This document shows positions 48,230-64,000 of a DNA stretch of 64,000 nt, piece by piece. How positions within the stretch are numbered: position 1 is the stretch's first letter; every line of letters starts with the position of its first letter. The notes below the pieces were generated by a model. That model had not been told where the DNA came from. It saw nothing but the letters and a program-made list of their open reading frames with translations, and did no database searches. Position numbers and translations under genes: made by a program. This DNA comes from Cypionkella sp. (GTDB taxonomy: Bacteria > Pseudomonadota > Alphaproteobacteria > Rhodobacterales > Rhodobacteraceae). Location of the stretch: positions 62,001-126,000 of the forward strand of contig NZ_JAUSBA010000018.1 of assembly GCF_030652235.1 (NCBI RefSeq). The letters run 5' to 3'.

Positions 48230-48346
48230 GCGAATTCCGATGCGGGTTTCGTCGTCTTAGCAATAACCAACAAATATTGATTATTTTACTATTCCAAGCC
48301 CCATCTTTGTGATGCAAAATGAGCCTCAAATCAACCGGGGCAACTT
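48230..48346. other. AT-rich gap at the presumed prophage left end
   Basis: 117 bp between purD and the first phage gene. Positions about 48262-48295 are unusually AT-rich (AATATTGATTATTTTACTAT) for this genome; a promoter for the rightward gene chain or the attachment site could lie here. Neither can be fixed without the right end of the prophage. Confidence 0.4.
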
Positions 48347-48526
48347 ATGACCAATTACCTCCTGAAACCGCTTTTCGAGGATTTCGACACCCGCGCAGCT
48401 GTCGCGCGCCGCCATGCTGTTGGTGGCGTGCTGTCCGAGGCTGACACGCACGGACTCTACCGCCGTGTCGCATCCAATCACGGCTGCACGCCCGAGGATG
48501 CTAAACGCTGGATCGAGGGCCGGTGA
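48347..48526 (+). CDS. Small phage protein, first gene of the overlapping chain
   Basis: 59 residues (MTNYLLKPLFEDFDTRAAV to KRWIEGR), too short for the ORF track. Acidic/basic mixed, probably helical, with the end CTPEDAKRWIEG suggesting a small DNA-binding or adaptor fold, but no family recognised. Its stop shares one base with the next start (TGATG). Confidence 0.65.
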   Translation: MTNYLLKPLFEDFDTRAAVARRHAVGGVLSEADTHGLYRRVASNHGCTPEDAKRWIEGR

Positions 48527-48750
48527 TGGACGCGGGACATTGGATCACCGCAGCGCTTGCGGCTGTCGTTTTGATCGTCGCGGCCATCGCCCGGAGAAAG
48601 CCGCGCACAAGCGATCTGAGCGCCGGGCAGCAGTATCGGCGGCGTCAGGATTGGCACAAGGCCTCCAAGCCGAATCCCGATTCGGCACCATCGCGCCAAG
48701 TGCGCCGCGCCCAAGAGCGGGCAGCAAAGAAGGGGCGGGCCAATGGCTGA
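48526..48750 (+). CDS. Small phage membrane protein
   Basis: 74 residues with an N-terminal membrane helix (WITAALAAVVLIVAAIA) and a basic cytoplasmic tail rich in Arg/Lys/Gln (RRAQERAAKKGRANG). ATG 48526 is chosen; the track's GTG at 48523 is also possible. Function unknown. Overlaps the next gene by eight bases (ATGGCTGA). Confidence 0.65.
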   Translation: MDAGHWITAALAAVVLIVAAIARRKPRTSDLSAGQQYRRRQDWHKASKPNPDSAPSRQVRRAQERAAKKGRANG

Positions 48751-49036
48751 TCAGTGCCAGCATATGAATTTTGGGGCGAATGTCTCGGTCGGTCGGATCA
48801 CAAAGAGCGAAGGTGCCCCCGTCGATTATTTCACGGCTGACGTTCGCATCAAGTGCGCGGACTGCGGCCTGCCCTTTCAGTTTCTCGGACTGGAGGCGGG
48901 CATGGATACACAGGGCGCGCGAGTTAGCGTCGATGGCCTTGAGGCTCGCTTGGCTGTTTGCCCGCAAGGGGCTGAACTGTCGCCGTTTGACCGGGTGATC
49001 GTCCGCATTGGTGGGGTGGGCCCGCGTCATGGCTGA
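48743..49036 (+). CDS. Phage protein with CxxC pair
   Basis: 97 residues. IKCADCGLPFQFLGLEAG looks like a half zinc-ribbon, followed by TQGARVSVDGLEARLAVCP. Similar small proteins are common in phages of Rhodobacterales (from memory), function unknown. Ends with the same ATGGCTGA junction as its predecessor. Confidence 0.7.
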   Translation: MADQCQHMNFGANVSVGRITKSEGAPVDYFTADVRIKCADCGLPFQFLGLEAGMDTQGARVSVDGLEARLAVCPQGAELSPFDRVIVRIGGVGPRHG

Positions 49037-49877
49037 GAACTCAAACATCGAGTGGACCAAACACACTTTTAATCCCCACATCGGCTGCACGAAGGTCGGG
49101 CCGGGCTGCGATCATTGCTACGCCGAGGTGTGGGATGCGCGCGGGCTGCAACAGGCCGAAACCCGCTGGGGTCCACATGCGCAGCGCACCCGCACCAGCG
49201 CAGCCAACTGGCGGAAACCGATTGCTTGGAACAAAGCTGCGGCTGCCCTTGGTGAGTTTCATCGCGTGTTCTGCGCGTCTCTTGCTGACGTGTTCGACAA
49301 CCACACCAGCATTCAGCCCCAATGGCGGCGCGACCTCGGCGCGCTGATCGAAGCAACACCCAACCTGATCTGGATGCTGTTGACCAAGCGTATCGGCAAT
49401 GCCCGCCAATACCTCGCGATGATGTTTCCCAATGGCGTTCCCAAAAACGTCTGGCTGGGCGCAACAGTGGTCAATCAGGAAGAAGCTGACCGCGACATTC
49501 CTAAACTGATCGCCACGCCAGCCAGCATCCGCTTTCTTTCGATGGAGCCGCTTCTTGGTCCGGTGGATCTGCGCGGTGTCACCGTCGCGCATGGCATCAA
49601 TGCGATGTGGCCGGTCGATCTGGTGATCGTCGGCGGCGAGAGTGGCAAAGGCGCGCGGCCATGCGACCCGCAATGGGTTCGCCCGATCCGCGATCAATGC
49701 GTTGCCGCTGGGGTGGCATTCCACTTCAAGCAGTGGGGCAACTGGCATTCTGACGCCCTGCGCTTCACCGATATGCAGGGTCGCTGCCCGCCGCCAGATA
49801 TGAACATCGGCAAGAAGGCTGCCGGCCGAACGCTCGACGGTCGCACATGGGATGAAATGCCAGTGGTGGCCGCATGA
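49029..49877 (+). CDS. Phage Gp37/Gp68-type protein (DUF5131)
   Basis: 282 residues, well matched to the DUF5131 family. N-terminal NIEWTKHTFNPHIGCTKVGPGCDHCYAE has three Cys (residues 20, 27, 30; Cx6CxxC), then FCASLADVFDN, WMLLTKRIGNA, VWLGATVVNQEEADRDIPKLI, RFLSMEPLLGPVDL and VIVGGESGKGARPCDPQWV. The three-Cys start and barrel-like strands recall radical-SAM-type proteins, but a function is not established. ATG 49029 is used; the track start at 49008 lies in the previous gene. Confidence 0.9.
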   Translation: MAENSNIEWTKHTFNPHIGCTKVGPGCDHCYAEVWDARGLQQAETRWGPHAQRTRTSAANWRKPIAWNKAAAALGEFHRVFCASLADVFDNHTSIQPQWRRDLGALIEATPNLIWMLLTKRIGNARQYLAMMFPNGVPKNVWLGATVVNQEEADRDIPKLIATPASIRFLSMEPLLGPVDLRGVTVAHGINAMWPVDLVIVGGESGKGARPCDPQWVRPIRDQCVAAGVAFHFKQWGNWHSDALRFTDMQGRCPPPDMNIGKKAAGRTLDGRTWDEMPVVAA

Positions 49878-50171
49878 TCCCGCAAACCGATCAATGGGAT
49901 GAAACCCTGCGCGGCAAGAAAATGTCGGCCGCCACAGGCAAGGTGATCTTCAAATATCAGATGCCGGTGCTGGAGCAATTCACCATGAGGCTGCCAAAGG
50001 GCGCGGAAATCATCCGCATGGCCGATCAGGGCGGCATGTTCTGGCTCTGGGCCGTGGTGGATACCCGCCTGCCAGACGAGGACCGGCCTGTTCTATCGCG
50101 GCTTCTGCGCCGTCCATGTCCAACAAGAGTTGGGGCTCTACATCTTCGAGGATCTCACAAATGCGGACTGA
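49874..50171 (+). pseudogene. DUF7352-like phage protein with a frameshift
   Basis: Starts MIPQTDQWDETL; the core KVIFKYQMPVLEQFTMRLPKGAEIIRMADQGGMFWLWAVVD fits DUF7352-type proteins. After about 50078 the expected continuation GLFYRGFCAVHVQQELGLYIFEDL lies in another frame and ends at TGA 50169-50171, eleven bases into the next gene. The track frame instead runs on to 50281 as nonsense. Either a one-base deletion (real or a sequence error) or programmed frameshifting; a mutation is more likely. Confidence 0.65.
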
Positions 50172-50826
50172 TGCAATCTACGGCAGCCTCCCTGTCGATC
50201 TGGGCTTGGTCGATATTTCGCCAGTGGAGCAGATGGCTTGGCTTTACTGCCCGATCAAGCTGCCCAGTCAGTTGGTGGTGACGATGCCGCCAAATCTGTG
50301 GCAGTTCATGCCGATCATCAACGCGGTGATCGACGATGTGGTCGATACCGACGCCGATCTGTGGCCCGACAGCTATGTCTATCTGACGGCAAAGCGCCTT
50401 TGGGTAACTGCGGACAGCCCCGGCAATCGTCCCGGATGGCACTCTGACGGTTTCCTGACCGATGATCTGAATTACATCTGGTCGGACGGAAATCCGACTG
50501 TGTTCTGGTCGCGCGAAACGCAGAAGGTGAGCTTCATCGCCGATCATGTTGGATCGATTCCAGAAATGGAATTGATCTGCGAAACTGATCGCTTCCGGCA
50601 CCACATCTATTCCAACAAGCACCTTCTGCGGCTTGATCAGACCGTGATGCACAGGGTTGGGCCCGTCGCAAACCCCGGATTCCGCAGCTTCGTCAAGGTG
50701 TCGGTGGCGAAGGATCTCTATGCGCTCGAGGGCAACTCAATCAACCACGGATTGCCCATCGGCGGCAGGTATCAGGCCCGTGCTGAGGTGCGAAATAATC
50801 CGGCTGGCCGGAGTGATGCGCTATGA
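50161..50826 (+). CDS. Phage protein, possible 2OG-Fe(II) oxygenase
   Basis: 221 residues from ATG 50161. WHSDGF (H94, D96) with a later MHRVGP (H164) and Arg in GFRSFVKVS about nine residues on has the H-x-D...H...R spacing of double-stranded beta-helix dioxygenases. The flanking strands (SYVYLTAKRLWVTA, TVFWSRETQKVSFIADH) fit such a fold. No named family is certain. If right, it could modify a nucleotide or protein. The track start at 50116 is upstream of the true start. Confidence 0.6.
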   Translation: MRTDAIYGSLPVDLGLVDISPVEQMAWLYCPIKLPSQLVVTMPPNLWQFMPIINAVIDDVVDTDADLWPDSYVYLTAKRLWVTADSPGNRPGWHSDGFLTDDLNYIWSDGNPTVFWSRETQKVSFIADHVGSIPEMELICETDRFRHHIYSNKHLLRLDQTVMHRVGPVANPGFRSFVKVSVAKDLYALEGNSINHGLPIGGRYQARAEVRNNPAGRSDAL

Positions 50827-51251
50827 GCGCGCTTCCGCAACTCGCCCTGTCGATCCGCCAGCCGTGGGCATGGGCGATCATCAACGCCGGCAAAGACATC
50901 GAGAACCGCTCTTGGCCGACCAAGCAGCGCGGGCCGATCTGCATCCATGCCGCCAAGGGCATGACGAAAGATGAATATTCCGATGCAAATCGCTTCATCC
51001 AGCGGAATGTGGGGGCCGTCGATCAGGTATGGCTTAACCGCTGGCTTGGAGTGACAGCTGCGGAGTTTCTGCTAGATCGCGGTGGCATCATTGGAACGGC
51101 TGAAATCGTGGACTGCGTTGAGGCAAGCGACAGCCCGTGGTTCTTTGGCACCTATGGCTTCGTTCTGCGCAATGTGCAGCCCGTCGAGTTTATCCCGGTC
51201 AAGGGGGCGCTCGGCTTCTTCGACTGGCGCAAGCAGATGGTGGCTGCATGA
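50823..51251 (+). CDS. ASCH domain protein
   Basis: 142 residues. The start LALSIRQPWAWAIINAGKDIENRSWPTKQRGPICIHAAKGM is a clear ASCH/EVE-like signature; GIIGTAEIVDCVEASDSPWFFGTYGFVL completes the barrel. ASCH proteins bind RNA or modified bases, and phage versions have been linked to nucleoside hydrolysis. Overlaps both neighbours by four bases. Confidence 0.88.
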   Translation: MSALPQLALSIRQPWAWAIINAGKDIENRSWPTKQRGPICIHAAKGMTKDEYSDANRFIQRNVGAVDQVWLNRWLGVTAAEFLLDRGGIIGTAEIVDCVEASDSPWFFGTYGFVLRNVQPVEFIPVKGALGFFDWRKQMVAA

Positions 51252-51445
51252 TCGAAGATCCCTGGCACCCCATCGTCACCGTCCAGCTTTCCGGCAGCAT
51301 CACCGCACAAGGGCCGACCGTCGAGGAAGCCGATGTGCGCCGCCAAAGCCTACCCACCGATATGCACGGAAAGCTGGCGGTGCGGACCGGCGAAAACACG
51401 GTTGCCGTTGGCAGGCCGATTCAGAAAATGAGGAAGCCATCATGA
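51248..51445 (+). CDS. Small phage protein
   Basis: 65 residues starting MIEDPWHPIVTVQLSGSITAQG, mostly beta by appearance. The track gives a longer ORF from 51137 that lies over the ASCH gene; ATG 51248 overlaps the ASCH stop as ATGA. Not recognised. Confidence 0.6.
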   Translation: MIEDPWHPIVTVQLSGSITAQGPTVEEADVRRQSLPTDMHGKLAVRTGENTVAVGRPIQKMRKPS

Positions 51446-51846
51446 CTTCCACCCCCGATCCCGCCCTAGCCGCGCGGTCCCTGTCGGCGCTTGAGAAAAT
51501 CCAGCAATTCCCGAAGCAACAACCTGTGACCCGCGCCGCGATCAATCCGGAAACGATTTGGATATACCCCGAGCAAGGCGATCCCGGCGCTGGCGAATGG
51601 TTTTGTGCCGCAGAGGTTGATAAGCCGGAAGCATCCGCAGCCATCCAATACATGCGCGTCGATCTGCATAACGCCGCCGTGCAAGCCGCCGTGGCGAAGG
51701 CGGTGGAGGCGGAACGGGAGGCGTGTGCAAGGATTGCGCGCGGGCTTCGTGATCAATGGCGATGCGCAAACGGCTTCGAAGGCTTTGCGACCGGGGCCAA
51801 GATCATAGATGATGCCATCCGCGCCCGCAAAGGAGATGCGCTGTGA
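51442..51846 (+). CDS. Phage hypothetical protein
   Basis: 134 residues from ATG 51442 (the track's 51082 start is in the ASCH gene). A C-terminal helix VAKAVEAEREACARIARGLRDQWRC and KIIDDAIRARK resemble the widespread phage C-terminal segment that ends many accessory proteins of this type; function unknown. Overlaps the next gene as GTGA. Confidence 0.65.
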   Translation: MTSTPDPALAARSLSALEKIQQFPKQQPVTRAAINPETIWIYPEQGDPGAGEWFCAAEVDKPEASAAIQYMRVDLHNAAVQAAVAKAVEAEREACARIARGLRDQWRCANGFEGFATGAKIIDDAIRARKGDAL

Positions 51847-51965
51847 AGGACACCATCGCCATAATTCTGCTGCTGACATTTCTCTACTTCGTCGGTGATC
51901 CGGCCGCACTCGGGAGAATGGCTGCATCGGTTCGTAACGGTTTCAACAGCGAGGCCACCCCATGA
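51843..51965 (+). CDS. Tiny phage membrane peptide
   Basis: 40 residues, MKDTIAIILLLTFLYFVGDP then a short polar tail; a single hydrophobic helix. Too short for the track. Called on tight coupling (GTGA before, ATGA after). Confidence 0.5.
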   Translation: MKDTIAIILLLTFLYFVGDPAALGRMAASVRNGFNSEATP

Positions 51966-52156
51966 CCCACCCACAGACCGCCGCGATGCAAGAACTACGC
52001 CAGATGATCTATGAAATGCGGATTGAGCAGGCCAAACTGCGCCCCGTTCTGCGCGATTACTCAGCCAAGATGAGGGCTAACATGCGGCAGGATGGACCGA
52101 CAGGTTTTGTCATGCTGCGCCTATCTGACCTGATCGCAGACACGGAGGGGCGGTGA
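51962..52156 (+). CDS. Small helical phage protein
   Basis: 64 residues with a long charged helix (AAMQELRQMIYEMRIEQAKLRPVLRDYSAKM). No family recognised. Overlaps its neighbours by four bases on both sides. Confidence 0.6.
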   Translation: MTHPQTAAMQELRQMIYEMRIEQAKLRPVLRDYSAKMRANMRQDGPTGFVMLRLSDLIADTEGR

Positions 52157-52383
52157 TGTGGACTGAAACTGTTGACGCGCTGCCAATTAAACCCGGAAAA
52201 AGCAGCTACGAGCAAATCTGCTGCCTGATCTATGTGAATGGCGCATATGAAGTTGCGGTTTGGAACTGCGAACACGATTGCTGGGATGATGCTGAAGGCG
52301 ATGATTTCCGCTATCACCCCAAGCAGCCGCGTTGCTGGATGCCGCTCGATGCCCCGCCCCCAACACCGCAGGAGACGCCTTAG
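52153..52383 (+). CDS. DUF551-like phage protein
   Basis: 76 residues. WTETVDALP at the start and FRYHPKQPRCWMPLDAPP at the end follow the pattern of DUF551-type phage proteins (W..xP...WMPLP.PP). GTG 52153 or ATG 52156 starts. Last gene of the chain; ends overlapping the Rz1 stop on the opposite strand. Confidence 0.65.
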   Translation: MMWTETVDALPIKPGKSSYEQICCLIYVNGAYEVAVWNCEHDCWDDAEGDDFRYHPKQPRCWMPLDAPPPTPQETP

Positions 52384-52574
52384 CCGCGCGCCACGCACAT
52401 GCCGAGGTTAGCCCGATCACGGCCCCAGAACACCTCAATCTCTGCATCGTCCATCGCGCGCGGCGGTAGCACTTGCGGGCCGGGGATAGGCGGAAGATCA
52501 GGGCTTGGAATATTCGTTGAGCCGCAGGACGCGAGAAGCAGGCAGGCAAGCATGGCTTTGGACAGGTTCAGCAC
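52380..52574 (-). CDS. Rz1-like outer-membrane spanin lipoprotein
   Basis: 64 residues: a lipoprotein signal with lipobox (MLACLLLASCGS), then a Pro-rich body (IPSPDLPPIPGPQVLPP). It starts 77 bases inside the 3' part of the Rz-like gene in another frame, the classic nested Rz/Rz1 arrangement. With Rz it fuses inner and outer membranes at lysis. Confidence 0.82.
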   Translation of the reverse strand: MLNLSKAMLACLLLASCGSTNIPSPDLPPIPGPQVLPPRAMDDAEIEVFWGRDRANLGMCVARG

Positions 52575-52782
52575 GGGCTTGATCCTCTAGGGCTAGGGCG
52601 AATTGGCGCGCGTCCACCTCTGCGGTCAGGATTTCGCGCTGTTTGATCGCGGTGCGCTCTGCGGATTCCAGAGCGGCGGCTACATGGCCCGCCTCGCAGT
52701 CTGAGCCACCCTTATGGTATCCAGCGCCGAAGGCCATCAGAACGGCCCCCAGCGCGCCCAGAATGAGCCAAGGCCGCATCAT
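52498..52782 (-). CDS. Rz-like inner-membrane spanin
   Basis: 94 residues: N-terminal membrane helix (LILGALGAVLMAFGAGYHKG) then a periplasmic coiled-coil (AALESAERTAIKQREILTAEV). Overlaps the endolysin stop by four bases and contains the start of Rz1. Confidence 0.82.
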   Translation of the reverse strand: MMRPWLILGALGAVLMAFGAGYHKGGSDCEAGHVAAALESAERTAIKQREILTAEVDARQFALALEDQARAEPVQSHACLPASRVLRLNEYSKP

Positions 52783-53270
52783 GCTTCGTTTTTCGACACA
52801 GCCGCGCCGCGCTTAAGCACTGGCAGCGGGATCTTGGGGTTAGCATAGGTCGAGGGCCAGCGGATTGCCTTGCACCGATCCTTTGCAATCCAAGTGCGAG
52901 AGATACTGTCACCCTGATTGCCGCCGAGGACGCAGTAATTGTCAGCATCCTGCCCGACCAGCACGCCGATGTGCCCGCCTGTGGGTCGCTTGAACGCGGC
53001 GAACGCACCATAGAGCGGCATGCAGGAGACACCAAGATATGACCAATTCAGCGCCCAATACGGGTTGCGACCCAGATCGCCGGGCCGGGGCTCTTTCGGC
53101 AGCGCCAGATAAAGCGCGGTGTCAGCGGCATCGCCGCACCACGGCAGCTTTGCAGGATCGCCCAGCGTCTTGCCATCCGACCGCAGCCACTTCGCCAACT
53201 TGTCGTGGTCGCGGGCCTCATGCCAGCCCAGCACCTTCTCAAGCTCGGTTATCCAAGGAAGTTGCTGCAT
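52779..53270 (-). CDS. Endolysin, TIGR02594-type cysteine peptidase
   Basis: 163 residues. KLPWCGDAADTALYLA carries the catalytic Cys45, and GGHIGVLVGQD the His100, with VLGGNQGDSISRTWI following; this is the CHAP/NlpC-like TIGR02594 family. Cuts peptide bonds in peptidoglycan at lysis. ATG 53270 (GGAG six bases upstream) is preferred over the track's TTG 53282. Confidence 0.88.
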   Translation of the reverse strand: MQQLPWITELEKVLGWHEARDHDKLAKWLRSDGKTLGDPAKLPWCGDAADTALYLALPKEPRPGDLGRNPYWALNWSYLGVSCMPLYGAFAAFKRPTGGHIGVLVGQDADNYCVLGGNQGDSISRTWIAKDRCKAIRWPSTYANPKIPLPVLKRGAAVSKNEA

Positions 53271-53271
53271 G

Positions 53272-53394
53272 TCAGGCTCCAATCAGGGGCAGGAAAAGGA
53301 TGATCAGGGAGAAAACGCATCCCCATGTTAGACGGTGCAAGAAATCGTCAATGTCCGAGCTGCTGTCGCGGCGGATCTTGCGCAGATCAAACAT
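53272..53394 (-). CDS. Small lysis-cassette membrane protein
   Basis: 40 residues, MFDLRKIRRDSSSDIDDFLH then a hydrophobic helix (CVFSLIILFLPLIGA). Not in the track. Sits between holin and endolysin, overlapping the holin end by eight bases. May be an antiholin or lysis accessory; inferred from place only. Confidence 0.6.
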   Translation of the reverse strand: MFDLRKIRRDSSSDIDDFLHRLTWGCVFSLIILFLPLIGA

Positions 53395-53761
53395 CGGGCT
53401 TTCCCCCATCATTGGCGGGCAGAACCCCCCGTTTCATGCCCCTCAGGTAGACTTCCAGAAGGCCGGGGATCAGGACTCCACCGAGGTAAGCGGTTGACCC
53501 AGCTACGCCCCCAAAGGCAGGCGTCATTACATCAAGCGGCAATTTGAGCGACCACATCAGGAAGGGCCACGTCAGCGCCCCCAAGCCTGTCGAAACGAGA
53601 CTGCCAATGGCGATGTGCCGGAATAGATCGCGGCGGGCTACCTTGATAATCAGGCCAGAAGTGGCCCCGCCGATAGCACCCCATGCCGCCAGATTGAACA
53701 AGCTGGACGCAGCGATTGCTTGCAGAAGATCAGCCCAGAAGGATTGGTTTTCAGCGGGCAT
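53387..53761 (-). CDS. Phage holin
   Basis: 124 residues with three hydrophobic stretches (LFNLAAWGAIGGATSGLII, IAIGSLVSTGLGALTWPFLMW, FGGVAGSTAYLGGVLIPGLL) and a charged C-terminus, directly upstream of the endolysin. Similar in outline to LydA-type holins. Would time membrane permeabilisation. Confidence 0.75.
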   Translation of the reverse strand: MPAENQSFWADLLQAIAASSLFNLAAWGAIGGATSGLIIKVARRDLFRHIAIGSLVSTGLGALTWPFLMWSLKLPLDVMTPAFGGVAGSTAYLGGVLIPGLLEVYLRGMKRGVLPANDGGKPDV

Positions 53762-55387: not shown

Positions 55388-58300
55388 CTATCGCCCGATT
55401 GGTGTTGCCCGCTCTGCCCGCAGTCGATCATTCAACCTCGGATTAAGAATAATCCCAAACTCTGACCGATCGGAGGCGCGCATCTTGCTGCGAGCTGACA
55501 GCTTGATCGACTCGCCAGTGATCGGATATTCAGGATAGCGGCTGTTGAAGTCGCCGATCTGGGCCAGAATGTCAGCCGGAATCCCATCGCCAGCCAAGAT
55601 CGCCTTTGCCGCCGCCTTCTGGATGCCGCTGCGTTCATCCGTCACCTGCATCTCGCGGTCTTTCAGGCGGCTGTTGATGTCATACCGCTCCGCAATCTCG
55701 GCCGGGGTAAACCCGATGGCTTGCACGATTGCCTGATACGGCGAAACGCCTTCGATCAGGCTGTCACCTTTCAAGGTGTTGACGCCATCGCCGACATATC
55801 GAACCGACTTCATGCCATCGCGGATTACCTTGGGAACGGCCGCTTCTGTGCCGCGCCACCATTCGCCATCCGCCGCCAACTGCACGCCACGGGCAGCTCC
55901 TGCACCAATAGAAACGGCTGGGCCAAGCAAATTCATTACTTGGTGCGTATAGAGGTCAGCCCCTTCCAGATCGTTCGGCGCATCGCGCCACCAAAGGTTT
56001 GGCATGCCGATACGGTCCGTCAGATCGACGCCAAGGATCTGGCCGGGAACACCATTTAGCACGGCACCCATTGTGAAATTCCATGCCGCAACACCAGCGG
56101 AATCGCCCTGCATCAAGAGCGCCTCTTGCAGCCATTCTTTGATGTCGTCGTCATCAGCACCGGGGGCAAGCATGCCCATAAGCATCATCAGCAGGCCATA
56201 GCCCCAGACGCCCCGGATACCTGCATGTGCCATCATCGACAGGGTGAGGCCGACAAGCTGCAACCGGGCCTCGCGGCGGTCCTCTTTGGTGGCACCGTTG
56301 AGCATCTGGTGGGTGTCGCGGAACAACCGCCACAGCATGTTCACGGTGAACTGGCGGAACGTGGTCAGCGCCTTGCCCATGTTATCCTGCATGAAGCGCG
56401 GGCGGCTGTTGTTCTGCATGTCGAAGTGGATTTTGAACGTCAGATCGCCAGCCGCATCCACCGCCGCAGCATGGTCCAGCCCCTCAGCCTTGGCCAAGCG
56501 ATAGCTGGCAAGGAATGTGACCTCGCGGTTAAAGCGTTCGGCGTGATGGAAGAAGAAGCCGATCCGCTTCATCCATTTCTCACGGCGGGCATTGTATTCG
56601 ATGCCATGTTCCGCCGCAGATGCCAGATCGTGCGCCTGCGTCTTGTCGATGGTGCCGCGCCGCACCGCCTCGGCCAGCGCCGCTTTTTCCTCTGTGGTCA
56701 GGTTCGGCGAGTTTTCCGCCGTCCACTGATCGGTCCAGACCGGGACACCAGCAACACGCTTGGAAACTTTACCCCGGCCTGCCACGAAGTCCTTGCTGGC
56801 TTTGCCGAGTGCCTTGGTGACGCCCACAACCCCGGCCTTGCCGAACCGTGCCGACATCAACGGGATGCCGACAACTGTGGTTTGCGTGATGTTCGCCAGT
56901 GCCGCCGCAGGGGTGGCACCGAGATACCAGATGAAGGCCGCATTGGACATATACGCGACGTAACGATTGCCCTTCGGGTTCATGGTGAAGTCGTGGCGCT
57001 TCTTCATCTCGGCCACGACTTGCAGCGCCCGGTTGGGGTTATCAGCAACCTTCGCCTGTTCAGTTGCGTCGTTGAGGTGTTCTTCCATAAGCAGGCCATG
57101 CTCCAGCTTCGCGAGCTGGTGGCCACCGTGGAACATCTGATTGCTGAACGCGCGGAAGGCATCGGCACTGTAGCCAGCCCGGCCTTTGCGGTGAATACTC
57201 GAGGTGCGGATAGACATATCCGGCAAGGTTCCCAGCCAGTGCTGCCATACCGCATCCATGACCTCATCGCTGGCGCCGGATTCGGCGAGCATGTTCTCGA
57301 TGTCAGCGACAAAACTTGGGTCGATCTGCCCGCGCAGCTTTTGCGCATCATCCATGGTGCCATGCTCGATCTTGGTTTCGCCTTTTTCTTTCATCTCACG
57401 GATGAAGGCTTGTTGCTGGCTCTCCTTCTCGAACTTGCTGAACGAAATGACGGCCCCCACGGAATTTCGCACGGTGACAAAATAGTTGCCGAAGCGCGCC
57501 AGAGGGAAATATGGGCCCAAGAGCCGGTTCAACTCAAACTTCTTGCGCAGAGCGGCCAAGCGCGCACGCGCCGAGAAACCACCGCGCATCTTCACCGCTT
57601 TCAACTTGGCATCGGCGGCGGCAATGGCCTCGTCCCGCTCCACACCTTCCAGCCCTTCATCGCGGATGCGCGCGATTTCCTTTTCATGGGTGCGAACCGC
57701 GCGCTTCAAGCCGATCTTCGTGGCGTTCTGGATGTTCTGGAGGATCGCCTTTTCGGAAGCTTGCCCCATGGCATCATAGCCAGATTTCACCGTGCGATAG
57801 AGCTGGCGGAACTCTAAAGGCAGCGCCTTATATTCAGCCCTCAGCTTGGCGTAGCTGCCTTCATGCGCCTCAATCTCGCGCATCGCATCCTTGGCCCAAT
57901 CGCTTGCTTTATCGCCATTCTCCGCAATCTCACGCCGCGCCCTCGCATCCATTGCATGCACCCAGGTATCTGGCTCGGAAGGGTCGATACCGGACAGCGT
58001 TGAGCTGTGCATCAGGTCGGACATTTTGCTGCTGGCGTCAGGGTTCTTGTTCTGGGCGGCCAGCCAGCGCTGCGCCACGGCATCGGCCCGCGCGTGCCAC
58101 TCGTTGCGCACGGAATCCATTTCCTCCTTCTGGCGCAGATAGGCCTTGGCTGCGGGCAGATATTTACCCAACTCGGCGAACAGCGCCCGACCGGGCACCA
58201 GCGACAGAGCGTTGTAGCCATTATCGCCCACCATCTTATCGGTGACGATGTTGGAAACCCATTCGCCGGGGTTTTTCCAGTGGCGCGAGCCAACCAAACC

Positions 58301-61300
58301 CTTGAACTTATCCTGCACTGCGATCAGTGGATTGCGCATTTCCTTTTCATCCGAGGCCGCCGCATCGGGCGAGGCATCAGGCTTTGGCCCAATGTCAGCG
58401 CCACCATCCTGCCCGCGCCCGCCGACCTTACCGCCAGCAATCCGCTCCATGACCATGGCCGCATCTGTGAAACCTTCACCGCGCAGCGCCGAAGCAAACG
58501 CGCGGAAGAACGCCGCAACCTTGTTGAATATCCGCGACACCGGCCCCGCCGCAGCCCGAGCGCCTGCCCATTCCCGATACATCTCGGCCACGGCTTCTTC
58601 GGTCTGTACTGCGGGGGATTTATCGGAATATGCCTTCTCCACCCGCGCCATGATCTCAACATCACCACGCGCCGCCGCCACCAGCGTCCGCCATTCTACG
58701 CCAGTGAACAAGCCATAGGGCTTTGACCAGAGCGATTCATCCCGCAGGGCGTGAACAATCTCATGTCGCATGACGCCAACTGGATCAGCCGAGTCCGCGG
58801 AGATTTCAATCTGCGCCCCGGCCTGCCGCCCTTGGATCGGGATGCCGTTGCGATCCAGCAGACGACGCACAAGGATTGGCGAAACCTTGCCAGCCAGCCC
58901 AGCCGATTTTACTTCGGCAGCAATCGACTCTGAAATCGCGAGTAGGGATGAAACCGGGATGGGTTTGGAATTGGCAACATCGCCTCGGCTGTAGAATATC
59001 TTGCCGAGGCCGCGCGCTACCAGTTTATCCGACTGCTGTAGAGATCGTTCCAGTAGTCCGGGTCTTTTTCCGCTCGGCGTGTGTGCCAAGGTATTGAGGA
59101 GAATGCCTCGCTTAAGCGTTTTGCGCCCCGCGCCTGCCGCTCTAGCTCCGGCAGTGGTACTCCATGCTCTAAAGCGCCCATCAGCAATGGACTCGCCTTC
59201 ACCATCTCGGAAGGTGCCTGTTGCGAAATCGTATCGAGCATCGGCTACCTCCGGCACATGATGGATAAGGTTTTCCACACTGACATCAATCAGTGATTCG
59301 ACATTACCAACTGTATCGCCATCCGTCCAGACCAGCGGGGTTACACCAAGGGCCGCATCACCTTTAATTTGCCGTTCATGGGGCTCCAAATGCTTGGTGG
59401 TGCCGTGCTTAAGCGCCGAAGAAAGCATTGCCTCGGTTCTGCGCCGCAACGCGATGTCGGAAAGGCCTTCTGGATCACCAATGAACACCTGACCCGAGTT
59501 ATAGGCGTAATCAGCCACCGCCGAATAGACGGCGCTGCCCGCGCCGCCTTCCGTCATGTTGCTGACATCCATCCAGACGTTGCCATCGCCTTCATAGACA
59601 AAGAAGTCCTGCCCACCCGTGCGAAGAAGGTGCATCTTTTCGGCCCCAAGCTTTTCAGCCCGTTCCGAAAATGCGCTGGCCTCGCCCTGCGTGGCAACAT
59701 CACCAACATAGGTGACGCTTGGGTCAACCTCGCCAAACACCGCCTTGATTGAGGTGCCTTGTGCCGTGGGGTTCTGGAACAGATCATCGACCGATGCCAA
59801 CTCCGCCATGATCTCGGCGGCAAAGGCAGAATCCATATCCGCAGGCTCTTGGCCATCTGGGAACCGCGAATACATCTCGACGCCGCGATCTGTTTCCCGC
59901 GTCTCGATTACAGTGAACAGCTTGTCGAAAGCCGCCCGCACCGCTGGTTCTTCATCGGCGATCAGGTAAGGATAGCTATCGCCTTCCAAGCCCTGCAAGG
60001 CCGCCGCTGCTTTCCAATATTCCTCGGAAACGATGTTCGCGAGATAATCGTTGGCGGCGTTCTGATCGCGCAGCTTGGCGATGACGTAGCTTTCAAACGC
60101 CCGCGCGTGCATTTCAACGCCGGTGGACCAATAGGGAGTCGACCGCATCTTGTCGATCACGGCGGAGCGCGGTTTCAGCTTCGTGGTGCGCAACGCCTCC
60201 CGCAGATCGGCGAAGGCCTGCAACACCTCTGGCCGCACGTCCGCAGCCTCGCCAGTCTTGCGCGGGGCCGGGTTGTTGGTGACAAATTCGACAGGCCGCC
60301 CCCGCATCCGCTCGAAATAGTTATCGACGGCATGAAACCATTCATGCGCCAGCGAGCCCGCCCCTTTGTCCTTGGTCAGATTGATCACGATATTGCCGGA
60401 CTCGTAATGCGCCTTTGCCGGGGTTTTCCCGCCACGCCCGCGCGCGCCGAAAGCCAAGCCCATCTGCCCATTCAAGGAAAGAGCCTTGGGCGGAATCCCG
60501 ATGATGCCTGCCAAATCCATCAGCGCGTCATAGGCTTGGTTCAAGTCCTGCTGACGGCGCGCGCCCTCGACATAATTTCCGAACTGGACACCACGAAAGC
60601 CAAAGGTCTGCTCGAATGCTTCCGGGGTGACATCTGCGCCAAGGCGGTGATCATCGCCGATCCGCTCGCTGTTGGTGTCGCGGCGCTCGCTGGGCACCTC
60701 TTTCATCGCGGCCAATCGTTTTTCCAGATCGGCCCGATTGTTGGTGCGGTAGGCGCGCGCCTCCTGACTGGTGGCAAAACGTTGAACTTCTACGGGCTTG
60801 CCCGCGACTTTCACGCCGATGAACACATAGGCCTCGCCACCCTTGGGCTTGGCGCTGTAGATCAGGAACTCCGGGCCTTTCTTGGCTTTGGCGGTTTCGG
60901 CAGTGGTATCCGTGCCAGTGGCTTTGAAAGCCTGAATTGCCGCCTCTTTGGTTGCACCGAAGGCCAAAACCTTGGGCCAGTTGCGCGCGCCGGGGCCGAT
61001 CACCTCATAGCGGGCTTGGGTCATTTTGCCGTCAGACAGATATGGGGTGGAGTGTTGGAGCTTGATTCCAGTCAGATCGCGATCATGGCCGAGGGCAAGA
61101 TAAAGATCGACCGCACCCATGATGTCGTCACGCAGACGCGACATCGAAGGCTGCTCCAACCGGTCACGGATGCCTTGCGGATCTATGACGCCATCCAGAA
61201 GGCTGCGTGAGAACGTGCGCAGCAACTTCACGGCTTCGACCCAGCCCTTGAGTTTCCAGCCCTGCGGCTTGCGCGGCACATGCTGGCGGGCGGCACGGAT

Positions 61301-64000
61301 GAATGCCACTGACCAAGGATCGGCCCCGTCCTCGATCAGCGCCGCATAGTTGGGTTCCGGCCACGACTTCGACAGCGGATGATTGGCGACATCGCCATCG
61401 GGCACATCGCCGAGACGTTTCGCAAAGCCCTTCCAACGATCCTTGGCTGCACCGTCCAGCTTTTCGCCGAAGTCAGCGATCTTGCCAGCAGGCTTCGCTG
61501 GAGCGACGGCGGCACCCTCCAACCGAACCGGCTTGGTCGTATCCCCGTTCGCCACCCAATCCTTGAACTCGGCGACAGTCATAACCTTGTGCGCGCCCAT
61601 CCGGTCGGCACCTTTGCCGTCAGAAAAGCCCTGCACATAGAAATCCAGCGCGGTTTTGCGGTTGGTGAAGCCCAGCATCGACTTGGTTTCATCGAATTTC
61701 TTCGTATCGGCATCGACCTGATCGACCACCACTACGACATCGCTATCGGGATTATCGCCCATGTAAACGTCGAGATGATCACCATCTGCGCCTTCCGTGC
61801 GCTTCAGGTAGCCGTAGTGCGCTGGCAGCTTCACCGACCATTCGTTGCCATCGGCATCTTTGCCTTTGCGCAGCGCGCCCTTCGGCGTTTCGATGGTGAT
61901 GTCCAAGCCGTTCCAAGCGGCGTGAGCCATTTTGTAGTTGCCCGCCTCTTTCTGGGCGTCTGTGGGGTTCTTGTCGGCCTCTGCGGCGGCAGTGTCGATT
62001 TCTGCGGCGGTCGGCGCTGGCGTTGGCTCCTTGGCAACGGTTTGCTGTTGCTCACGATCAACTGGCCCCGCGCGCAGCTCGCGCTCGCTTGGCGTGGTGC
62101 CGTGGCTCCGCACGCGCATATCGCTGGGGTTCTTCACCCACTTATCACCCTGCTTCACCACGGATTCGACGGTAACTTTCGGGCCGCCATCTTTATCCCG
62201 TTCAAAGGCAACAACCCTATCATGTCCGCCGCCGTAAGCCGACACGATGTTGCCGGGGGTGAAGTGCGCGTCGATCTGGGCGTCATGCGCAGTGCGGGCG
62301 GCTTTGGGCGACAGCTTTGGTTTCGCTGGCGGCGCGGGGGTGTGGGGTTTTGCGAGCGGGGCATCCACCGTTTCTTCGTTTGGTTTCACCGGATCGGCAA
62401 CCGAACGCTCCACTTCGGTCTTAAACCCGGCACCACGATCAGCTTTCGGTTGCCAGCGGTTCTCGCCATTCACCTTGACCAATGGCTCAACAACCCTGTT
62501 GCCATTCTGGCGATAAGATCGAACGCCATCGGCATCCTCAAACAGCGGATTGCCTTCGGCGTTGACGCCGATCTGGCTTTGCTTCGGCTTGGCAGAAGGT
62601 TTTACAACTTGATCAACAGGCTCGGATTCCGCCACAGGCGCAATTTTATCCAGCTCATTCATCGCCCCTTGGGTGGCAGCGGCAATATCATCCTCTGACA
62701 TGCCCTTGGTGTCGATCACCCGGTCAAAATCACTTGGGCCATCCGGCTTGGCACGAACCACAACCTTGCCGGGACGCACCAAGACATTGCGACCAGCAAC
62801 TTCGCCATCCCAAGCGCTTTTGCCATTGGCTGCAATCGGCAGAAACTGCCCCCACTCGCGGCGGGCCTGCTCTTTGCTGGCAGGATCAGCCTTAGTGCTG
62901 TCGGCAACGGGTTTTGATGCTAGCGCCTTGTCTGGCATCACCACATCGCGCATATCCGCTTCGGCCTTGGTGATCGCGGCTTCCTGCTCAGCGTCGGCCT
63001 GAGCGCGTTCCGCGTCATCGTCGGCCTTGGTGACGTGATCAGCAGCAAGGCCATCATCGAGCATGGGCGCGACTGGCGCGCGCGGGGCGGTCAGTGCAGA
63101 AGGTTGCTCGCTGCCGGTTCCCGCAGCAGGAATATCAGCATCGCCGCCCGACACTCCGGCGTCCCGCGCTGGAGAAGCGTTACCTCCGTCGAGTCCTTGT
63201 CCAGCGCCTTGCTGAGCGACTGCGCCACTTCCGGCGACACCTCCCCCATTTGCTGCAACTGGCTCAGGGCTTGGCGGGCTGACATTTTGCGTGACATCTT
63301 GCTTCCCTGTGACGGCATCTGTCGGTTGCGCGGGCGGTGCGGTTGCATCTTCATTCCACGGCCCATCGTAGTAGCCCATCTCACGCAATGCTTCTGGTGC
63401 CGCATCATCGACATGACCAACCGATAATTCACTTTCAGGTGCCAAGGCAGGCACTTCTGCCTGTTTCTGTGGGGCTTTTTTCCCAGCCCCTTTAGCTGCT
63501 GCCTTGGCTTCTTCCTCTAGCCGCAGTGCCTCATTGCGCGCCTGATCAAACTCTTGGGGGTCAAGCACGATTTCTTCGCCGTTGACGCGGACGGAAACAC
63601 CATCTGGGCCTTCACCAAGGAAAACAGCGTTGTGCGTGACTTCACCTTCGGGGTCATAGAGCTTGATTGCGCTGCCCGGTTTCTGATCGGGGAAGAACGA
63701 AGGCGGAGGCACGGCCTCTGGCTGCGGGGTGAGATCCGGCGCAAGGGCTGCGGCGCGGCCAATCGGCCCGGTTGGTGCGGCAATCGTGGCTGCGGTGAGC
63801 CCATCGTCGGCCATTGGCGCTGGAGCTGCTGGTGGCATATTGGCGGAAGCCGCCCCTGCATCTGGTCCGGGGAGGCCCATAGCTGGAGCAGCTTCCTGAC
63901 CCCCGGCGCTGCCATCGCCGAGAGGTTGGGAATTGGGGGTCGTGAGTGGAGGCTGAGTGACGGGTTGGCCCGCAGGACGGTTCGCAGCACCAGCGACGGC
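55388..64000 (-). CDS. Giant phage polyvalent protein (PLxRFG type), N-terminus beyond window
   Basis: At least 2871 residues: the track begins at a Met at 63880, but the frame is open to the window edge. Numbering from that Met: 1-640 Ala/Pro-rich linkers with small beta-modules; 655-790 an inorganic-pyrophosphatase-like domain (ETPKGALRKGKDADG, GDHLDVYMGD); about 1085-1300 an LPD1-type region (FGFRGVQFGNYVE, LAFGARG) with HEWFH at 1179; about 1660-1780 a second HExxH (HEIVH at 1706); 1990-2120 helical/coiled-coil; PLARFGNYF at 2126; then a long helical region with membrane-like segments (GYGLLMMLMGMLAPG). Such multidomain proteins are thought to be injected with phage DNA and act early in the host. 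Confidence 0.85.
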   Translation of the reverse strand, partial: AVAGAANRPAGQPVTQPPLTTPNSQPLGDGSAGGQEAAPAMGLPGPDAGAASANMPPAAPAPMADDGLTAATIAAPTGPIGRAAALAPDLTPQPEAVPPPSFFPDQKPGSAIKLYDPEGEVTHNAVFLGEGPDGVSVRVNGEEIVLDPQEFDQARNEALRLEEEAKAAAKGAGKKAPQKQAEVPALAPESELSVGHVDDAAPEALREMGYYDGPWNEDATAPPAQPTDAVTGKQDVTQNVSPPSPEPVAANGGGVAGSGAVAQQGAGQGLDGGNASPARDAGVSGGDADIPAAGTGSEQPSALTAPRAPVAPMLDDGLAADHVTKADDDAERAQADAEQEAAITKAEADMRDVVMPDKALASKPVADSTKADPASKEQARREWGQFLPIAANGKSAWDGEVAGRNVLVRPGKVVVRAKPDGPSDFDRVIDTKGMSEDDIAAATQGAMNELDKIAPVAESEPVDQVVKPSAKPKQSQIGVNAEGNPLFEDADGVRSYRQNGNRVVEPLVKVNGENRWQPKADRGAGFKTEVERSVADPVKPNEETVDAPLAKPHTPAPPAKPKLSPKAARTAHDAQIDAHFTPGNIVSAYGGGHDRVVAFERDKDGGPKVTVESVVKQGDKWVKNPSDMRVRSHGTTPSERELRAGPVDREQQQTVAKEPTPAPTAAEIDTAAAEADKNPTDAQKEAGNYKMAHAAWNGLDITIETPKGALRKGKDADGNEWSVKLPAHYGYLKRTEGADGDHLDVYMGDNPDSDVVVVVDQVDADTKKFDETKSMLGFTNRKTALDFYVQGFSDGKGADRMGAHKVMTVAEFKDWVANGDTTKPVRLEGAAVAPAKPAGKIADFGEKLDGAAKDRWKGFAKRLGDVPDGDVANHPLSKSWPEPNYAALIEDGADPWSVAFIRAARQHVPRKPQGWKLKGWVEAVKLLRTFSRSLLDGVIDPQGIRDRLEQPSMSRLRDDIMGAVDLYLALGHDRDLTGIKLQHSTPYLSDGKMTQARYEVIGPGARNWPKVLAFGATKEAAIQAFKATGTDTTAETAKAKKGPEFLIYSAKPKGGEAYVFIGVKVAGKPVEVQRFATSQEARAYRTNNRADLEKRLAAMKEVPSERRDTNSERIGDDHRLGADVTPEAFEQTFGFRGVQFGNYVEGARRQQDLNQAYDALMDLAGIIGIPPKALSLNGQMGLAFGARGRGGKTPAKAHYESGNIVINLTKDKGAGSLAHEWFHAVDNYFERMRGRPVEFVTNNPAPRKTGEAADVRPEVLQAFADLREALRTTKLKPRSAVIDKMRSTPYWSTGVEMHARAFESYVIAKLRDQNAANDYLANIVSEEYWKAAAALQGLEGDSYPYLIADEEPAVRAAFDKLFTVIETRETDRGVEMYSRFPDGQEPADMDSAFAAEIMAELASVDDLFQNPTAQGTSIKAVFGEVDPSVTYVGDVATQGEASAFSERAEKLGAEKMHLLRTGGQDFFVYEGDGNVWMDVSNMTEGGAGSAVYSAVADYAYNSGQVFIGDPEGLSDIALRRRTEAMLSSALKHGTTKHLEPHERQIKGDAALGVTPLVWTDGDTVGNVESLIDVSVENLIHHVPEVADARYDFATGTFRDGEGESIADGRFRAWSTTAGARAAGAGRKTLKRGILLNTLAHTPSGKRPGLLERSLQQSDKLVARGLGKIFYSRGDVANSKPIPVSSLLAISESIAAEVKSAGLAGKVSPILVRRLLDRNGIPIQGRQAGAQIEISADSADPVGVMRHEIVHALRDESLWSKPYGLFTGVEWRTLVAAARGDVEIMARVEKAYSDKSPAVQTEEAVAEMYREWAGARAAAGPVSRIFNKVAAFFRAFASALRGEGFTDAAMVMERIAGGKVGGRGQDGGADIGPKPDASPDAAASDEKEMRNPLIAVQDKFKGLVGSRHWKNPGEWVSNIVTDKMVGDNGYNALSLVPGRALFAELGKYLPAAKAYLRQKEEMDSVRNEWHARADAVAQRWLAAQNKNPDASSKMSDLMHSSTLSGIDPSEPDTWVHAMDARARREIAENGDKASDWAKDAMREIEAHEGSYAKLRAEYKALPLEFRQLYRTVKSGYDAMGQASEKAILQNIQNATKIGLKRAVRTHEKEIARIRDEGLEGVERDEAIAAADAKLKAVKMRGGFSARARLAALRKKFELNRLLGPYFPLARFGNYFVTVRNSVGAVISFSKFEKESQQQAFIREMKEKGETKIEHGTMDDAQKLRGQIDPSFVADIENMLAESGASDEVMDAVWQHWLGTLPDMSIRTSSIHRKGRAGYSADAFRAFSNQMFHGGHQLAKLEHGLLMEEHLNDATEQAKVADNPNRALQVVAEMKKRHDFTMNPKGNRYVAYMSNAAFIWYLGATPAAALANITQTTVVGIPLMSARFGKAGVVGVTKALGKASKDFVAGRGKVSKRVAGVPVWTDQWTAENSPNLTTEEKAALAEAVRRGTIDKTQAHDLASAAEHGIEYNARREKWMKRIGFFFHHAERFNREVTFLASYRLAKAEGLDHAAAVDAAGDLTFKIHFDMQNNSRPRFMQDNMGKALTTFRQFTVNMLWRLFRDTHQMLNGATKEDRREARLQLVGLTLSMMAHAGIRGVWGYGLLMMLMGMLAPGADDDDIKEWLQEALLMQGDSAGVAAWNFTMGAVLNGVPGQILGVDLTDRIGMPNLWWRDAPNDLEGADLYTHQVMNLLGPAVSIGAGAARGVQLAADGEWWRGTEAAVPKVIRDGMKSVRYVGDGVNTLKGDSLIEGVSPYQAIVQAIGFTPAEIAERYDINSRLKDREMQVTDERSGIQKAAAKAILAGDGIPADILAQIGDFNSRYPEYPITGESIKLSARSKMRASDRSEFGIILNPRLNDRLRAERATPIGR

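Follow-up and report, generated by a model that had tools for sequence, protein, structure and literature searches.

A probable accessory gene cassette between the attachment site and lysis module of a podophage-like prophage next to purD in Cypionkella sp.

Introduction

What kind of region is a tight chain of small genes that starts at the very end of a prophage and runs against the lysis genes? The question is raised by twelve overlapping open reading frames (ORFs) at 48347-52383 on the plus strand of a 64,000-nucleotide stretch of Cypionkella sp. DNA (the window), which comprises positions 62001-126000 of contig C60 (NZ_JAUSBA010000018.1) of a draft genome of 4.8 Mb. A sequence-only reading of the window had taken the chain for an accessory host-takeover or anti-defence cassette at the left end of a prophage. 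We present here a computational analysis of the region, which is, with high probability, an accessory cassette (of the "b-region" or moron type) that belongs to a temperate podophage integrated after the host gene purD and lies between the phage attachment site (attP) and the lysis module. The cassette is ordinary in kind, and nothing about it is categorically new. Unprefixed coordinates below are those of the window.

Results

The left end of the prophage comes right after the stop codon of purD (48229), which is intact, and is marked by the left attachment site (attL), which confirms the earlier placing of the chain at a left prophage end:

48230-48253, no strand assigned: attL, composed of a half-arm of the host attachment site (attB), the 9-base core CCGATGCGG (48237-48245), and a phage half-arm

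The attL sequence is GCGAATTCCGATGCGGGTTTCGTCG and that of the right attachment site (attR), on contig C44, is GCACGAAACCCGATGCGGAATTCGGG; a congener (G248) has the site empty, as GCGAATTCCGATGCGGAATTCGG. The core CCGATGCGG is common to all three. The att sites were located at 48230-48253 and at L302:13300-13330, L302 being the locus on C44. Similarity of congeners to the window runs through purD and ends at about 48250, and the sequence 3' of purD in a congener corresponds by synteny to C44 from 13310 on. A tyrosine integrase gene (int) adjoins attR on the minus strand (C44:11863-13131; L302:11863-13131). As reconstructed from these sites, attB would be an inverted repeat around ATG with 9-base arms, CGAATTCCG-ATG-CGGAATTCG, and attP an inverted repeat around ATG with 10-base arms, ACGAAACCCG-ATG-CGGGTTTCGT. 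The predicted integration site of the phage lies just after purD. With these sites mapped, a place of chromosomal integration can be predicted for a group of phages that have rarely been seen to integrate: PMC9144972 called JC1 the first stable case of integration, and the POI1126 prophage is kept as a plasmid (PMC5492332). C60 ends within the prophage at window position 92525, and the prophage parts (about 44.3 kb on C60 and 13.3 kb on C44) come to about 57.6 kb across a presumed join, versus 58-63 kb in relatives.

The gene content points to a temperate podophage of the Bcep22/Atu_ph08 type. The portal protein is P22-like (PF16510, E 2.5e-165) and is 46-48% identical to those of Atu_ph08, BcepMigl, and Itty13; the other structural genes include an SU10-type adaptor and a terminase. 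Near the lysis module, an ORF of 2830 amino acids (aa) at 55388-63880 encodes a DarB-like/PLxRFG giant protein with 43% identity over 43% of its length to PEp14 and Pavtok, and its match to known phage relatives is confined to the C-terminal half. A scan of viral contigs with the portal protein gave no confirmed relative. A Mu-like early region was ruled out, as the prophage has att sites, a tyrosine integrase, and structural genes of a podophage.

An early operon on C44 contains an S24-type repressor gene, a helicase gene, an FtsK_gamma-GapR fusion gene, and a KTSC gene and runs toward int, which the KTSC gene overlaps by 4 bases, as gp42 and int do in Atu_ph08. The gene order of the circular phage is early operon (plus), int (minus), attP, cassette (plus), and lysis module (minus). 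The product of the fusion gene (L302:9754-10704) is a phage protein with an FtsK gamma domain and, fused to it, a GapR-like DNA-binding domain. Elsewhere in the prophage (L005:4178-6494), an MT-A70 methyltransferase gene overlaps an SNF2-type helicase gene.

The cassette comprises an AT-rich leader and twelve plus-strand ORFs, whose successive junctions overlap by 1, 8, 8, 4, 11, 4, 4, 4, 4, 4, and 4 bases. Its features are as follows, C53 being another contig of the same genome:

48254-48346, plus: AT-rich leader, of which about 48269-48346 is kept in the C53 paralogue (alignment)
48347-48526, plus: gene 1, 59 aa, with an 84% identical copy at C53:10507-10659
48526-48750, plus: gene 2, 74 aa, with a hydrophobic N terminus, then a basic tail, and no family match in Pfam or PHROGs
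48743-49036, plus: gene 3, 97 aa, with relatives near phage DUF5131 genes (L166, L184)
49029-49877, plus: gene 4, 282 aa, DUF5131 (Gp37/Gp68; PF07505, phrog_2045)
49874-50171, plus: gene 5, DUF7352, broken, with the C-terminal part in the +1 frame
50161-50826, plus: gene 6, 221 aa, phrog_1843, predicted 2-oxoglutarate (2OG)-Fe(II)-type oxygenase
50823-51251, plus: gene 7, 142 aa, ASCH-type (PUA-like), phrog_3193
51248-51445, plus: gene 8, 65 aa, with a 70% identical copy in the C53 paralogue
51442-51846, plus: gene 9, 134 aa
51843-51965, plus: gene 10, 40 aa, with a GTG start and a hydrophobic N-terminal segment
51962-52156, plus: gene 11, 64 aa
52153-52383, plus: gene 12, 76 aa, with a weak phrog_60 match

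Gene 12 (end 52383) converges on the minus-strand lysis genes (end 52380) with a 4-base tail overlap, so the chain does run opposite to the late genes, as had been proposed. The lysis module is arranged as follows:

52380-53761, minus: whole lysis module, with the same gene order in the relative L303
52380-52574 and 52498-52782, minus: Rz1/Rz-type spanins, named from position and shape
52779-53282, minus: lysozyme
53387-53761, minus: holin-like gene, named from position and shape

In every ORF of the chain, GC content by codon position follows GC1 > GC2 < GC3, as in purD and the lysis genes, and the longest chain of overlapping ORFs has 12-13 members, whereas none of 300 first-order Markov shuffles gave more than 9. 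Chance ORFs were ruled out by this codon-position GC and by a chain length beyond all 300 shuffles. The overlap pattern is usual for this phage lineage: a count on the annotated early operon of Atu_ph08 gave overlaps of 1, 4, 8, or 11 bases at 17 of 27 junctions, and POI1126 has the same kinds of junction overlap. The two identical junctions remarked on earlier are present, both being ATGGCTGA (48743-48750 and 49029-49036), which is also one of the 8-base overlaps of Atu_ph08. A special role for ATGGCTGA as a junction was ruled out; Atu_ph08 has ATGGCTGA once and ATGACTGA four times. A search for structured RNA in the region returned a single subthreshold match (24.5 bits versus 50), which was confined to the minus strand.

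The chain consists of eleven intact genes and one broken gene. ORFs and overlaps were as the sequence-only reading had described them, except that gene 5 is not one frame. From its ATG at 49874, a single frame extends to 50281, not 50171, and the conserved DUF7352 C terminus (ending in VHVQQELGLYIFEDLTNAD before the stop) sits in the +1 frame, ending at 50171; the Pfam DUF7352 match to gene 5 covers only profile positions 3-55 of 97. Alignment with the nearest relative (on L118) reveals a 44-base, out-of-frame gap in the window copy, and it is this deletion that leaves the broken gene joined to gene 6 by an 11-base overlap. DUF7352 is a single open frame in nearly all relatives. A programmed frameshift was ruled out by these one-frame relatives together with the 44-base gap. 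Another DUF7352 gene, at L116:2762-3107, is also frameshifted, but its break does not coincide with that of the window copy.

Comparison of gene content shows that the cassette is exchanged in blocks. The homologous position in Atu_ph08 is taken up by int and a single 77-aa gene, the only one between lysis and int. In L303, which is nearest by lysozyme (72%), a minus-strand operon (DNA methylase, GapR protein, dGTP_diPhyd_N, and ThyX) reaches the lysis genes without an intervening int, and POI1126 has regulator and partition genes. A second locus of the same genome, C53:10763-9860, retains the leader, gene 1 (84%), and gene 8 (70%), but there a 38-aa ORF stands for genes 2-7, and gene 8 is followed by a 96-aa ORF. 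This paralogue shows a swap of the cassette interior between kept genes, and the exchange borders between the window and C53 fall near gene borders. The sequence GGCCAATGGCTGA precedes gene 3 (48730-48755) and gene 8 in the C53 paralogue (about 10340) and is possibly a short homology used for module exchange. Beyond the C53 copy, no relatives of gene 1 were found in 397 genomes of the family. The C53 copy (C53:9860-10763; L006) adjoins glycosyltransferase genes, and a broken int fragment is present at the start of the contig (about 120-450). The accessory and modular character ascribed to the chain is borne out by its position between attP and lysis, by the different genes of Atu_ph08, L303, and POI1126, and by the C53 paralogue; metabolic genes do occur in related phages at this position, but they are not its only content, and exchange is modular.

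The products of genes 4, 6, and 7 (DUF5131, oxygenase, and ASCH) are plausible modifiers of nucleic acids or nucleotides. Gene 4 was correctly recognized as DUF5131: it matches the PF07505 profile in full (1-243 of 243, E 7.6e-88) as well as phrog_2045. The family alignment contains the invariant cysteines C20-x6-C27-x2-C30; with this C-x6-C-x2-C spacing, gene 4 lacks the CX3CX2C motif of radical S-adenosylmethionine (SAM) enzymes. Variants of the radical SAM cluster motif exist. The spacing lowers the case for radical SAM membership, not the possibility of a similar mechanism. The predicted structure (predicted local distance difference test [pLDDT], 85) resembles TIM barrels, and a fold search placed AprD4, DesII, and spore photoproduct lyase among the top matches, at weak E values of 1e-3 to 7e-3 and mixed with aldolases; a match to TIGR04471 is weak and far below the cutoff. 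The model suggests a TIM-barrel-like protein with weak resemblance to radical SAM enzymes. DUF5131 occurs in 156 of 50,697 phage records. Gene 4 gave the only PADLOC match, as the B part of the candidate defence systems PDC-M41B (E 4e-56) and PDC-M30B, and the A part of PDC-M30/M41 had no match among the ten cassette proteins scanned (all but genes 5 and 10). A PDB sequence search with DUF5131 returned no match, and a literature search on DUF5131 found no paper.

Gene 6, noticed earlier as a possible oxygenase, is predicted though not proven to be a 2OG-Fe(II)-type oxygenase, as motif and predicted fold suggest. In 25 sequences of phrog_1843, H94xD96, H164, and R175 are invariant, forming an HxD...H metal triad plus a distal Arg. 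The best PDB fold matches of the predicted structure (pLDDT, 90) are 2OG oxygenases (ColD, E 1.7e-4, probability 1.00), but with a TM score of only 0.43, and the viral matches include viral dioxygenases. A Pfam search with gene 6 gave no match. In about a dozen viral contigs, as well as in BDU-MI-1, OLIVR5, and a Shinella genome, the oxygenase gene has an overlapping or directly adjoining DUF7352 gene, and the overlapping pair recurs in unrelated phages; DUF7352 is absent or elsewhere in several oxygenase-carrying phages, such as RHEph01 and Microbacterium phage Lyell. Relatives of the oxygenase gene at loci L379 and L377 lie near RNA ligase genes. In Lyell, genes for polynucleotide kinase and RNA ligase come directly after the oxygenase gene, and in DSS3_VP1 an RNA ligase (RNA ligase 2) gene lies two genes upstream of it; such neighbours would fit a role in RNA repair.

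For gene 7, similarity to ASCH proteins is supported, although the score against PF04266 (17.8 bits) falls below the Pfam gathering score of 21.2. Gene 7 also resembles the solved ASCH domain of Activating signal cointegrator 1 (E 1e-4), over residues 8-55 only.

Discussion

The gene chain with its broken gene 5, the att sites, the position of the cassette, its convergence with the lysis genes, and the exchange of blocks are established by the results above; its promoter, timing, dispensability, substrates, and benefit we infer as follows. In the circular phage, the cassette would be co-oriented with the early operon and parted from it only by the opposing int and by attP, and integration would shift it to the purD side. 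The leader (48254-48346) presumably holds a promoter, which would drive the cassette; no terminator was predicted after purD, so host read-through into the cassette would also be possible. The genes, which are replaced in blocks between phages, would be translated as one coupled unit and be dispensable for virion building. They probably encode small enzymes that act on nucleic acids or nucleotides (oxygenase, DUF5131, and ASCH), along with small proteins of no assigned function, which may together give a conditional benefit in infection or lysogeny.

Several points weigh against this account. A consensus sigma-70 scan of the leader (48254-48346) found no promoter and no terminator was predicted there, and a consensus promoter scan of the region found none on the plus strand. 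DUF5131 lies inside the early operon of Atu_ph08 and of POI1126, so that some of the cassette genes may be early genes that were displaced and not later additions. The functions given to the cassette rest on weak or model-based assignments, and the presumed C60-C44 join is drawn from synteny plus gene content.

As a tentative alternative, the whole cassette may be no independent accessory unit but the distal part of the early operon, from which int and attP separate it; on the circular phage, transcription from the early promoter would then cross int to reach it, and integration would silence it. The cassette has the direction of the early operon in the circular order, DUF5131 sits in the early operon in Atu_ph08 and in the accessory operon in POI1126, and the early-type operon of L303 runs straight into the lysis module without int, but retention of the leader upstream of gene 1 in the C53 paralogue suggests separate control signals, and the 4-base overlap with int closes the early operon. 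The anti-defence or host-takeover set of the sequence-only reading is doubtful and was not supported. Position, block exchange, small proteins, and possible nucleic acid modifiers fit such regions in other phages, but no anti-defence family was named by the matches in Pfam, PHROGs, NCBIfam, or PADLOC, and such positions carry metabolic genes too (ThyX and dGTP_diPhyd).

A defence expressed in lysogeny, protecting the host from other phages by superinfection exclusion, is unlikely. The cassette is attL proximal and co-oriented with purD, so that expression in the lysogen is possible, and its DUF5131 protein matches two PADLOC candidates; against this, their A partner is not among the cassette proteins scanned, and DUF5131 is found in many phages. 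Still less do we favour a decaying remnant without function, to which the 44-base deletion in gene 5 and the degraded relative with an int fragment on C53 would point, since the remaining eleven ORFs are unbroken and have the composition of coding sequence, genes 4 and 6 retain key residues, and int, the repressor gene, and the 2830-aa DarB-like gene are still open. It is also improbable that the DUF7352-oxygenase pair is an undescribed phage module that hydroxylates a nucleobase, nucleotide, or tRNA and forms, with DUF5131 and ASCH, a modification and counter-defence set. The recurrent, unnamed pair is a testable enzyme candidate and the most useful lead of the locus.

The accessory cassette of a temperate podophage proposed here has several known counterparts. 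In lambda, ea47, ea31, and ea59 map to the b region. As in that region, accessory genes next to int occupy the interval from the attachment site to the late genes; unlike it, the cassette has twelve tightly coupled genes and belongs to a podophage with an early operon of other content. The likeness is drawn on position. The three lambda genes are listed beside int and score as nonessential (PMC10695390).

Among podophages, Agrobacterium phage Atu_ph08 (Roslyckyvirus) has a 48% identical portal protein, a DUF5131 gene (gp55), and a long overlapping early operon convergent with int, with a 4-base overlap in both phages; it differs in having a single 77-aa gene between int and lysis and its DUF5131 gene inside the early operon. 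Ochrobactrum phage POI1126 (Namazuvirus) is a related podophage whose long overlapping accessory operon includes DUF5131 and points at the lysis genes, whereas its prophage is a plasmid (PMC5492332) and regulator and partition genes hold the position of the cassette. Burkholderia phages Bcep22, BcepIL02, and JC1 share the P22-like portal and the DarB-like giant protein, with genomes of about 61-63 kb. JC1 integrates by a serine recombinase at rimO with an 18-base overlap (PMC9144972), in contrast to the tyrosine integrase, the site after purD, and the 9-base core described here. The phrog_1843/DUF7352 pair of Bradyrhizobium phage BDU-MI-1 and Agrobacterium phage OLIVR5 likewise has an overlapping DUF7352 gene directly before an oxygenase-like gene, whereas the DUF7352 copy in the window is broken.

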